The notes under the pieces: generated by a model
The model's input: only the letters and a program-made list of their open reading frames with translations
What the model was told of the DNA's origin: nothing
The model's database searches: none
Shown here: positions 3,859 to 36,800 of the stretch, piece after piece
Numbering within the stretch: position 1 is the first letter of the stretch
How the letters are laid out: every line of letters starts with the position of its first letter
Position numbers and translations under genes: made by a program
Origin: Ianthella basta
Taxonomy: Eukaryota > Porifera > Demospongiae > Verongiida > Ianthellidae
NCBI GenBank assembly: GCA_964019415.1
Contig: OZ025874.1
Location: forward strand, 8,021,092 to 8,085,091
Direction: 5' to 3'
Length of the DNA stretch: 64,000 bases

Positions 3859-6800
3859 CTACGAGGATCAGGTGACCACAATACCAACAGCACTCATTGG
3901 AGGTCTGCTGCAGTAGTGCTGTAACAGGGCTTGATGGCCATCCTGGTGCCTCTGCAACCCAGAAGCACTGCTAGACTCGTCCACCTCCTTCTCCTCCCTC
4001 TCATCCACAGCAGAACCTTTGTGCACAGATGTGGTGTCAGCTATGGGCTCAGTCTCAGCTGCCTTGCTAGGTGGGTCAGGGCTGCAAGCCGACAAATCCA
4101 CTGATTCATTGTAGGGGTGCTTTAGGATACACAGGAGCCTCCTAACCTGAATGATATAAAGGTGACAGATCAATACAAGGTCAACAAGAGCACACATGCA
4201 CTACTGTGACCACACCATATAAAGCACACAAGTAGAAAGGCCTTTTCATTCACATGTGTGAAACATTATACAGGATCCAATACACCACATTAACCGTTAA
4301 AGATCCAAAACGTCCAGAACAAGCCTCCAGACTCACGAGTCCTCTCATGCCACTCCTTCATTGCCAGTTATGCATACGTGGTACAGTAAGACATATCATT
4401 GCAAATACAATGTAGCAAATTTTTGTGTATAGATGACGTCATGATGTAGATTTTCCACAGAGTGCCCACACTTATCCTATTGGTTACACATTACCCCATG
4501 TAATGCTTGCAGTACTTCTACACAATGCATTTAGGTGCAATTTTAGACACCCATCACTATGGGAAATTGGCGGTCCATCATGGCGTACATACTTCACTGT
4601 AGTCTTCTCCTTCAGCTGCTTCAATTGCCTTCTGCACAATATGATTTCGCAGGACAAATCTATAGAAAGATAGTGAGCAGACAGTAATTAAGAGTAATCA
4701 GGAGCACATAATGAATAAGTCTGGGGAGAAGTGTACGGGCAGGGAGCCCCCACATAAATTACTGCATGTGTGATATTTTCCAGTGCAACCTCAGAAATAA
4801 GACCACCTTCCGGACCATGCACTGGTCTGATTTTTGAGGTGGTCTTAATTCTGAAAACCATTGTACATGTATACACAGATTTGGGACTAAATCAAAGTGG
4901 TCTTATTTGTATATACCCGTAAAATCTTCATCTGTCCTACTATACGTAGGTGAGTCCTATAATATACTACACATATAAAAGACCGTATGTGGTACATATC
5001 TCACATACTTAGGATTTGTTGCATTCATCACTGAAGTTCTGTCCTTGTTGACCTGATGAGTGTAAAGATAGAGATGTCACACCAAACACTAGTCACCATG
5101 GTGTGTGCTCCATGTCTCACCTACCTCAACAAGCTTCTCTTTACTCACTCCCACACCCTCCTTCTCCAGCCGTTTTCTGCATTGGGTGAATACAGAGCAC
5201 AATCAGGTACCACTTAACTGCACATTTCATCTGTGTGTGTGTGCGTGTAGCATGCTTAGTATGGAAGCTGTGCTGCCATTTACAACTCCTCACATTACAC
5301 CAAACAGCCAGGTTACAGGTTGGACTCTGCCATCACCTAGGCTGGGTAACCAGCAACTGGCAACCAGGCACATTCATTACCACACGCAAACACTGCTTTC
5401 AAGTCATCGCGGATAACATTAAACTAACGAAATGTACAGGTAGGCAAAGTGAAACATCTGCATATCCAGCCCTTTACTAATGGTGTGTTCGGTGGAGATG
5501 AGGAGGTGCTTCAGCATGGTTTAGCACATTTTGGCACAGTAGTTATGTTTGTTGTCACTACTCTCACTATGAACCACAACAGTGTGGGCAAGGTGAGTCA
5601 CCTCAAATAAGTAATGCTGCTATTCTAACATAGTATGGCAGTACAGTCTCTGTATCATACATTCGGCAAGGCAGTAATTGTATTGAATGGCACTGTTATA
5701 ATTCTGAAGCTCCACTTGTTATTAGGGCATACACTGCCTACCTCTTAATACCTAAACTATGAAGATCCACAGAGACAGCCAGCTGATATATCTATAAATA
5801 TTGATTACCTATTTAATTAAACATCCCCACGTTTGTAAGTATCATTATCACTGATGAAGGCAGCTGTAGCGCTGCCAAAACGTTTGATTCATCTCAATCG
5901 CTCGGCTAGTGATTTCACCAAAAAGGATCATGCTTCTACCTAGCCACTCAGGCCTTTACCGCATTACTCTTAAGTTATGCAGCTATAATATCAAAATGCA
6001 TACAATGACAACACATCTCCAGTGTGCCACATGGCAGCAAACACACCCTGGTACTCAAATACACATAATACCAGTCTGCAGCAGAATAGGCTACACTGCA
6101 TGCATGCATGTATGTATAATATATGTATTATGTTGTTAGGGCAGCACTAGGTATTATAAGATTACCTATAGTGCACCCCTGTCCATATGTTAATATGGAC
6201 AAAATTTATTTAAATTCAAAAATACACCAGTATCTGCATTCAGGCATTCTGGCACCATGCATGCAGCACATGTTCCATTCAATGAGCCAGTTGAATAATC
6301 TCACACACAGAGTACAAAGATAAGCAGTCTATAGTGCAGTCACTGGATCAACTACACATTAATTGCACAGCTAATTTAGGTCTGTGTGCAGCATAGCTCA
6401 AATGACTGTGTATGGTCCAAAAGTTATCAAAATTCCTGTTATGACAGTTTTCCAGGTGTTGTTCATATCTGCCAACCAGCAGCTGATCAGTAATAGGAAC
6501 AGTACCAGTAACAGCCGTATTTCTTGCAGCTGTATGAGTCGTAGTAACCACCACACTTGTTGTAGTAATAGCCGTAGTAGGATTTGCAATAACACTTGCT
6601 GCGGCGATAGCCATAGTGCCTGTATCCCGACCTGTAGTTAGACCGATAACCATAGTAACGATGACTACCATAACGAGATCTGTAACCATAACGTTTACGA
6701 GAATATCCCCCATAACGATAACTGCGAGATGCTGCAGCATTGGCTTCAGCATCAGCATCAGCATCAGCATCGGCATCGGCATCAGCATCGGCATCAGCAT

Positions 6801-33800: not shown

Positions 33801-36800
33801 TGGGTGGATGCAGTGTCACTATACAGAATACATGCAAGGAGAGGGAGTGCCTGCTTGCTGTCATCAGCAATGACAGAGTATGCAAGTAGAAGAAGAGGTT
33901 GCCATTTGTAGCTCTCAGGATGACCTTAAACTAATGAGCTCCTATTGAATGGTCACATGACTGAGAAGTAAAACACATAATACACTTAGTAAGTGTGGCG
34001 TAACTTCTATTTACTCCTAGACATTTGTATGCGAACAATAAGTGCTGCACTGTGTTATTGTTGCAATTGACGTTTACATAATGTTAAATGTTAAAATGTT
34101 ATTCAGTATACAACTGCCCAAACATTGATTCATTTGCAGCTGTTTCTTATACAAATTGTGTAAATTGTGTACTTTGATACCAGAAACAGCTGCTGCAAGT
34201 GACCCAAATGTTTGGACAAGAATTTTACCTAGTACCACAGTAGTGTAGTTCATAGTGCATAGTGTTGGCAGTTCCTTATTCAAGATCTCAAACTCCAGAC
34301 TAAAGAGGTAACTAAGTAAAAGTTAAATGCCAACCAAGAGGTATCAGCAGGATTTAGAACTTTTGGGCTTGAAGTGACTGGGTGCAAAGTGCTCTAAATC
34401 TCCTCAGACACCAATTGGGCAGCATTTAAGTACTATACATAGATCCAACTAATTGGACAGCAAATTGACTTAGCTGCTCTTCCTAGTGGCATTTGCATCC
34501 TAAGTAGCAAGTTCTCAAAATGCATGTGTTTGGAACATTACAGTAGTACTAGTAAATCACAATACATAATATTATAATGGAAAGCATGCATTATACTATC
34601 TATCTCTATTTAGCACAACAACCAAACAGAATCCAATGCAATGTCACAAATTAAGTGACCCATACATACTTCCATATGGCTAACCAATTTGCGTAGAATA
34701 AATGCTTCAACAGCCTACCCCAATACCCTCATTGGTTGCAGTCACTAACTGCCAAAGTGCCTACATTATAATGGTAATTGTATTCTGAAGCAGAGGAGAC
34801 AACACCAATATCTACTCCAGATATCAACGGTGCACTGCATATCACCTGCTATCTGCTAGTACACACCATTCATTGAGGTAATTTCAATAATTCAGTAACA
34901 AAATACCATTACAGCTTCCTTACTGGTGATTCAGTCATGCACTGGATCAACTACACATATAGTGTGTAGCTATGCCAAGCCTGACTAAGAGAGTCTGTGT
35001 GTGAGCCTATAAGCTAGTAATACAAAACCATATGTGATGGGTGTTCCATAATCCACTCTTGCCAGCCAACTTGCAGCTGACTAATAATAGTAACATGACC
35101 ATTTGCATCCGTACTTCTTGCAGCTCCAGGAGTTGTAGTAGCTACCACACTGGCTGTAACGAGAACTGCCATAGTGACTGGTGGGGGCCTTGCACACACA
35201 CTTGCGGCGCTTGGGGACACACTTGCAGCCATTGTGGTCCAAGCGGTAGCCATAGGAGCATTTCCTGGAACATACACACTTCTTGTAGTAGTTGTTCCAA
35301 GAGTAGGGTGAGTAGCACCTGGGTTTACACGTGCAGCTATCGTAGTCCAATTTGTAGTCGTGTGAGCATTTCTTGGAACATACACACTTCTTGTAGTAGT
35401 TGTCCCAGGAGTAGGGAGAGTAGCACCTGGGTTTGCACGTGCAGGTATCATACTCCAATTTGTAGTCATGTGAGCACTTCTTAGAACATTCGCACTTCTT
35501 GGAGTGTCTGTCGTAGTAGTGGGGTGCATAGCACCTGGGTTTGCACTTGCAGGTATCGTACTCCAATTTGTAGTCATATGAGCATTTCTTACGGCATTCA
35601 CACTTCTTGGAGTATCTGTCGTAGTAGTGGGGCGAGTAGCACCTGGGTTTGCATGTGCAGCTATCATAGTGAAGCTTGTAGTCGTATGAACACCTCCTGG
35701 AGCATACACACTTCCTGTAGTAGCTGTCCCAGCTGTAGTAAGATGGGCACTTTTGACGATAATGAGAAGTCCTGTGATATGTTGGATCAGCATCGGCATC
35801 TGCATCAGCGTCAGCATCGGCGTCTGCATCAGCGTCTGCATCAGCATCAGCATCTGCATCTGCATCTGGATCCGCATCCGCATCCGCATCGGCATCAGCA
35901 TCGGCATCGGCATCGGCATCGGCATCAGCATCGGCATCAGCATCAGCATCGGCATCGGCATCGGCATCAGGCTCTGGTTCAGGATCCGCTTTAGCAACAA
36001 AGACGGCAGTGCCACAGAGCAGGGCAAGCAAGAAGATAATCTTCACCTTCATTTCAGCCCTGCTTAGGTAAGAATCTTCACTGCGTTTAGAGAAGATCTA
36101 CAACCAGTGCTTGTCTTGAGGAATTTGCTCTTTTGGTCTGTTGCTCTTGGAGCTTGACTTTCTGGACAAAGTTGAGCTCCTTTATACCTTTCCTCCACTA
36201 GCAGCTGGCAGAAGTGTTGCGGCTGCTCAATTGGAACAATGGGGCTGTGTTTGCACACACAAGAAGAAGATATCAATGTTTGCACACAAGAAAGTGCTAC
36301 AGGTCTGTTGATAAGGAGATGTTCTAGTCTCTCCCCTAGTACCAATCTAAGAATTGTGATCACGACACTGACAGGTTTGAATGAGTATAACTTAGAACGC
36401 ATTAGTCACCCAGTCCTGCTGTGACACAGTAGGCTGGTCTATGTGTAACCATCCAGTGATCACTCATCTCAGTGTAACACTTGCACGGCTAGAATTTCCC
36501 TTTCAAGAACCATTCACACTAATCGCTTGACTACAAAGTTGTGCATATCACTCTGCAGCATGCAATGACCTCCTCCACTTGGACAAACCTGCAGATAGTC
36601 ATGCACATTTGTACAGATATCAACAGAGCCCAGTGTAATGCTGCCATATAACCTATACAATCACACTATTGCATACATACACATATGTACTTAAAAGTAC
36701 ATACATACATGCATACACACATACAATATACATACGTACATACGTACATACATACATACATAATACATACATATCTTGTACATACGTACATACATTTCAC

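Follow-up and report, generated by a model that had tools for sequence, protein, structure and literature searches.

Why would a protein predicted to be secreted carry, directly behind its signal peptide, a long run of dipeptides that nearly all end in Ala or Pro? The question is raised by a stretch of 64,000 nucleotides from the sponge Ianthella basta (assembly GCA_964019415.1, contig OZ025874.1, positions 8,021,092 to 8,085,091; the whole stretch is called the window here). Eleven related genes lie at 6487-36052 of the window, all on the minus strand and of two types, six A (A0-A5) and five B (B1-B5). Their precursors follow one plan: a signal peptide, a dipeptide propeptide and a Tyr/Cys-rich cationic protein. 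A preliminary description of the locus had seen in the propeptide the signature of removal by a DPP-IV-like enzyme. With moderate confidence, we take the best explanation to be that these tandem genes encode secreted cationic proteins rich in Tyr and Cys, whose precursors include an acidic shield that such an enzyme would strip down to a TY or SR dipeptide.

The genes and their propeptides

Signal peptides (ending AKA) were read by eye, and each propeptide run was extended by a script until the second residue of a dipeptide was neither Ala nor Pro (DV was allowed). Because the script stopped by this rule, the run ends fit it by construction; the start of the run at the signal cleavage, its length of 11 to 34 dipeptides and its break at the onset of the Tyr-rich part do not follow from the procedure. 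The eleven genes are listed below.

6487..6954, minus strand: A0; propeptide 6730-6885, 26 dipeptides; mature part 80 residues
8164..8853, minus strand: B1; propeptide 8650-8787, 23 dipeptides; mature part 161 residues, 24 Cys
10412..10891, minus strand: A1; propeptide 10685-10822, 23 dipeptides; mature part 90 residues
12937..13437, minus strand: B2, 5'-truncated; propeptide 13321-13386, 11 dipeptides, one of them DV; open mature frame of 127 residues
16228..16716, minus strand: A2; propeptide 16522-16647, 21 dipeptides; mature part 97 residues
18216..18767, minus strand: B3; propeptide 18600-18701, 17 dipeptides; mature part 127 residues, 18 Cys
22009..22497, minus strand: A3; propeptide 22303-22428, 21 dipeptides; protein identical to A2
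25624..26100, minus strand: A4; propeptide 25918-26031, 19 dipeptides; mature part 97 residues
29843..30319, minus strand: A5; propeptide 30137-30250, 19 dipeptides; protein identical to A4
31819..32418, minus strand: B4; propeptide 32203-32352, 25 dipeptides; mature part 127 residues
35081..36052, minus strand: B5; propeptide 35783-35986, 34 dipeptides; mature part 233 residues, 36 Cys

The eleven propeptides hold 239 dipeptides. The second residue is Ala in 183, Pro in 55 and Val in one, so that Ala or Pro was found in 238 of the 239 (with the run ends set by the rule), and the X-Ala/X-Pro series expected of a DPP-IV-type precursor extends from signal cleavage to mature start. As had been described, the series is unbroken in the ten intact copies, whose runs measure 17-34 dipeptides, and the sole exception, the DV, lies in B2, which lacks both TATA box and start codon. 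Asp occupies the first position in 207 dipeptides, Glu in 18, Ala in seven, Val in six and Asn in one, which makes it acidic in 225 of 239. We define the tract as the propeptide minus its three-dipeptide head and its final dipeptide; it comprises 195 units, namely DA (179), DP (12), EA (2), NA (1) and DV (1). The earlier statement that first residues vary while second residues do not is therefore right in that all five first residues occur and in the near-invariance of the second position, but it overstated the contrast, since Asp opens 192 of the 195 tract units and constraint acts on the first residue too.

The runs end as previously described, in AA (A0), AP (A1-A5 and B1) or DP (B2-B5), and the dipeptide right after them is TY in ten copies and SR in A0. 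That this dipeptide is a non-substrate, lacking Ala or Pro in second position, holds by definition; its location at the Tyr-rich part does not. Run length differs greatly between copies, as noted before, and the near-identical B2, B3 and B4 have runs of 11, 17 and 25 dipeptides, differing by whole-dipeptide steps. The net charge of the propeptides is -11 to -34, versus +17 to +32 for the mature parts.

In ten of the eleven copies the gene is a single open frame from ATG to stop; introns may lie in the untranslated regions. A TATAAA box stands at -130 to -137 in all ten copies other than B2, with a similar start-codon context. The boxes are the following.

7079..7084, minus strand: TATA box of A0 (-130)
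8983..8988, minus strand: TATA box of B1 (-135)
11023..11028, minus strand: TATA box of A1 (-137)
16848..16853, minus strand: TATA box of A2 (-137)
18895..18900, minus strand: TATA box of B3 (-133)
22629..22634, minus strand: TATA box of A3 (-137)
26232..26237, minus strand: TATA box of A4 (-137)
30451..30456, minus strand: TATA box of A5 (-137)
32543..32548, minus strand: TATA box of B4 (-130)
36181..36186, minus strand: TATA box of B5 (-134)

B2 has indeed lost its promoter: it has no TATA box and no ATG at the usual place, and its 5' end is unrelated sequence. Within that unrelated sequence (B2 region, 12937-13614), in-frame ATGs could begin a longer frame, and the mature frame is still open. 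The cluster sits within long direct repeats whose spacings include values of about 5.8, 3.6 and 4.2 kb, and the copies are not independent because A2 and A3, like A4 and A5, encode identical proteins. A tblastn search of the window with the mature parts found no further copies, its sole match being 17 residues at 41810-41860 (E 0.07-0.14).

Constraint in the window and in relatives

Comparing units within copies, the third position of the Ala codon differs at a rate of 0.62 and that of the Asp codon at 0.127; for positions 1-2 the values are 0.054 (Ala) and 0.0058 (Asp, the lower of the two). Ala is encoded by GCT (74), GCC (59), GCA (44) and GCG (6). Synonymous sites have thus changed while the amino acids were held, which argues against a young, pure microsatellite. 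Constraint works on the protein rather than on the DNA, at both dipeptide positions, and acidity and the cut-site residue are both retained. When the tract departs from Ala, it does so to Pro in 12 units versus Val in one, which we collapsed by hand to at least four Pro among five events (P = 0.0011, kappa 2).

Nine relatives (P0001-P0009) came from two profile searches against 5.77 billion proteins; eight of the nine lie on ENA contigs, which measure up to 503 kb. P0001 and P0002 formed part of the second query, in which the propeptide tract was masked and the head was not. In the seven relatives with a readable propeptide, the second residue is Ala or Pro in 73 of 83 dipeptides: 15/15 in P0001, 13/14 in P0002, 6/7 in P0003, 11/12 in P0004, 14/17 in P0005, 6/8 in P0007 and 8/10 in P0008. 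In first position these dipeptides have D (53), E (13), G (7), N (3), V (3), Y (2) and K (2), and none of the 83 has Ala or Pro there. If the head is set aside, Ala or Pro takes the second position in 53 of 58 dipeptides, and Pro makes up 15 of the 20 second residues that are not Ala (the members not being independent), against about 1/8 expected from mutation of Ala codons. Judged from these sequences, the alternation characterises the family, and the Ala/Pro rule is strong without being strict.

Only P0001 looks full-length, by its length and by reading; the remainder may be disrupted genes or fragments produced by gene calling. All carriers of exceptions look incomplete, and the exceptions are hard to weigh for that reason. 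P0007 and P0008 have a similar signal peptide, a short DA run, an ET/ES head and a different downstream part, and may represent a separate branch of the family or disrupted genes.

The comparison of constraint at the two positions, proposed in the preliminary description, gave a divided answer. In the window the second position is the stricter (238/239 Ala/Pro versus 225/239 Asp/Glu, Fisher P = 0.0008, a value that is too small because copies share the head VP and the ending AP by inheritance), and the relatives show no such difference.

Proposed removal of the propeptide and the alternatives to it

A DPP-IV-like enzyme releases dipeptides with Pro or Ala as penultimate residue, as described in PMC4528296. 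In the scheme that we favour, signal peptidase would cut behind AKA, and the acidic (Asp/Glu/X)-(Ala/Pro) segment would hold the sticky, positively charged part in a soluble, inactive state during its passage through the secretory pathway. A dipeptidyl peptidase of the DPP-IV type would then remove the segment two residues per step until it meets TY or SR, and the freed mature protein would most likely become cross-linked through Cys and Tyr as part of a coat, an adhesive or an extracellular matrix. The sequences show the reading frames, the alternation, constraint on both dipeptide positions, the existence of relatives and the Cys spacing; we infer from them that the proteins are secreted, that a DPP-IV-like enzyme removes the segment, and that the segment serves as a shield and the mature part in a matrix. 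The earlier claim of a DPP-IV-type signature survives as the one reading that best accounts for Ala or Pro in second position, in the relatives as well (73/83 overall, 53/58 behind the head, 15/15 in P0001), but it had missed the acidic first residue, which sets a polyanion opposite a polycation, as well as the leak in the relatives. The free run length, in whole-dipeptide steps, is expected if only the register matters, and equally expected from six-base slippage.

Several observations weigh against this scheme. Ten of the relatives' 83 second residues are not Ala or Pro (G 3, T 3, S 2, V 1, L 1), and the ET and ES of P0007 and P0008 and the EL of P0003 would be expected to halt or retard an enzyme strictly limited to X-Pro and X-Ala. 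G, T, S and V, which account for nine of the ten, are slow DPP-IV substrates; the tenth is L. Frequent exceptions in other species had been named beforehand as a refutation, and this count touches that condition without clearly reaching it. The relatives' heads are a biased sample because the second query was not masked over that part; P0005, P0007 and P0008 match chiefly over signal peptide and head (17-20% of the query), and P0003 is a weak match (E 0.019). The two positions are alike in the relatives, with 66/83 acidic first residues versus 73/83 Ala/Pro second residues (Fisher P = 0.21), and in the window the first residue is as strongly constrained, although stripping alone would not require that. 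The charges of propeptide and mature part are not correlated across copies (Spearman -0.22, P = 0.52, n = 11; Pearson -0.60, P = 0.052; Spearman -0.39, P = 0.34 in the eight copies left without B2, A3 and A5). A poly(A) signal lies within 400 bases of the stop in only 5 of 11 copies. Finally, the matrix role is read from composition and Cys spacing, and the fold searches named no relative.

The acidic segment could instead be removed by one endoproteolytic cut, or be retained, and be selected only as a disordered polyanion in which Ala and Pro are small, flexible partners of Asp. We regard this as unlikely but worth serious thought: the first residue is acidic in 225/239 dipeptides of the window and 66/83 of the relatives, the propeptide charge is opposite to that of the mature part and of similar size, and the G, S and T found in second position in the relatives are small too. 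Such a segment would have no need of a two-residue register, yet Ala and Pro never take the first position in the relatives (0/83), and it would accept DG, DS and DT equally with DP, where Pro is preferred (15 of the 20 non-Ala residues). By eye there is no dibasic site between run and TY, and the missing correlation of the two charges across copies speaks against it as well.

Asp-X repeats occur in biomineral proteins, and binding of calcium or mineral has been proposed for them. An (Asp-Ala)n domain that stays on the protein and serves in this way would suit the Asp of 192/195 tract units and a run length that differs freely among copies. It gives no role to the Pro that replaces Ala in register or to the Pro-rich head behind the signal peptide, and the G, N, V, Y and K first residues of the relatives (17/83) dilute the acid; we consider it improbable. 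Still less probable is a functionless hexanucleotide expansion, a coding microsatellite tolerated behind the signal peptide, which would give the two-residue steps among B2, B3 and B4 by six-base slippage but not a protein held constant over widely varying Ala third positions, nor the pattern in the less repetitive relatives (complete in P0001, 14/17 in P0005).

The mature proteins, known systems and the surroundings

The mature proteins are large, Tyr/Cys-rich and cationic, as previously described, with 80-233 residues, 18-34% Tyr and 6-36 Cys. Those of type A (80-97 residues) have a stretch rich in Tyr, Gly, Arg and His and a six-Cys C-terminal domain; those of type B (127-233 residues) have C-x12-C-x-C-x3-C-x10-C-x-C-x3 repeats and a C-terminal domain related to that of A. 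The ratio of nonsynonymous to synonymous change (dN/dS) is 0.15-0.30 in the older mature-domain pairs, which are under purifying selection. The young pairs A1-A2 and A1-A4 (A1 at 10412-10891) gave 2.2 and 1.38 from few changes, which could reflect positive selection, conversion or chance.

Comparisons with Pfam and with PDB by sequence, and with PDB by fold for B3 only, gave no named relative of the mature proteins; the six-Cys domain common to A and B likewise has no named match in Pfam or PDB. Antistasin (PF02822), listed for 3 of 7 mature proteins, reached 18.2 bits at best, under the curated threshold of 21.2, and was rejected.

The motif C-x10-C-x-C occurs at 3, 2, 2, 2 and 5 places in B1-B5, versus shuffle means of 0.06-0.12, counts reached in 0, 2, 7, 1 and 0 of 2000 shuffles; none was found in the six A proteins. 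The four-Cys form, with the fourth Cys at 1-3 residues, occurs at 2, 1, 1, 1 and 4 places and was reached in 0, 46, 41, 50 and 0 of 2000 shuffles, which is weak for B2-B4 and clear only for B1 and B5. A similar CX10CXCXC-like spacing is described for Balbiani ring 3 and the silk-homology domain of VEGF-C (PMC5816233, PMC10328876), and by eye P0001 and P0002 have one exact CX10CXCXC each. In Balbiani ring 3 the fourth Cys follows after one residue and in the window repeats after three; no growth-factor domain was seen, and the CXCXC family is absent among the Pfam matches of the mature proteins. In spacing, the B-type pattern resembles the Balbiani ring 3/VEGF-C motif; membership is not proven. 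Composition, the silk-like Cys spacing, the TATA boxes and tandem amplification together suggest a secreted protein that is made in abundance and has a structural, adhesive or coat function. We favour a matrix or adhesive role, with defence or venom use as alternatives.

Among known systems, hymenopteran venom precursors (melittin, 'aculeatoxins') are likewise described as having a signal peptide, a repetitive anionic propeptide processed by DPP4, and clustered gene families (PMC10821600, PMC10591384, PMC12465672); PMC10591384 reports the DPP4 processing of such toxins and disputes 'aculeatoxins' as one family. Aculeatoxin mature peptides are short and are described as Cys-free (PMC10821600), and the proteins of the cluster, with their 6 to 36 Cys, were not assigned to this contested superfamily. 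Ant venom genes are described with two or three coding exons (PMC12465672), versus one open frame here. Insect immune peptides (Mibin; cecropin, diptericin, drosocin) also have dipeptides directly behind the signal cleavage that are possible DPP-IV substrates, but Mibins are small, with at least one X-Pro dipeptide in 102 of 144 and two or three in tandem in 13 (PMC12882233).

The spacers of the yeast alpha-factor precursor, from which Ste13 removes acidic-Ala dipeptides stepwise, are very short, stand between pheromone repeats and belong to unrelated proteins.

Elsewhere in the window, the frame at 53060-53461 (minus strand) matches SelO (31.4 bits, Pfam) and that at 54990-56219 (minus strand) a rhodopsin-type receptor (54.7 bits, Pfam). 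Positions 1-288 (plus strand) match DUF3419 weakly (23.8 bits, under the Pfam cut-off of 28.2), a family of betaine-lipid synthesis that would be unusual in an animal if real. CLASP-like exons were seen by eye at 58000-62607, unconfirmed by Pfam (two pieces without a match, one with a subthreshold HEAT repeat), and open frames at 47733-52006 (plus strand) resemble a Ty3/gypsy-type retroelement by eye, two of them giving no Pfam match at E 0.01. A repeat array with a spacing of about 32 bases lies at 38749-39518 (18 overlapping copies in one family), and a minisatellite of about 18-base units, open in several frames, at 59302-59805.

It is conceivable, though we put it forward tentatively and think it rather unlikely, that the cluster represents an undescribed class of matrix or adhesive protein whose precursor itself carries the polyanion needed to restrain a Tyr/Cys-rich polycation and whose assembly is timed by an exopeptidase, with the stepwise rise in net charge triggering assembly outside the cell and the propeptide, variable in length but strict in register, acting as a length-tolerant molecular fuse. 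In the papers cited here, stepwise DPP-IV maturation is documented chiefly for venom and antimicrobial peptides of small size. Should it hold for larger Cys/Tyr-rich secreted proteins as well, the device would be wider than thought. It would give a clean prediction of mature N-termini, and it would offer a natural way of designing adhesive or cross-linking proteins that stay silent until they are secreted.

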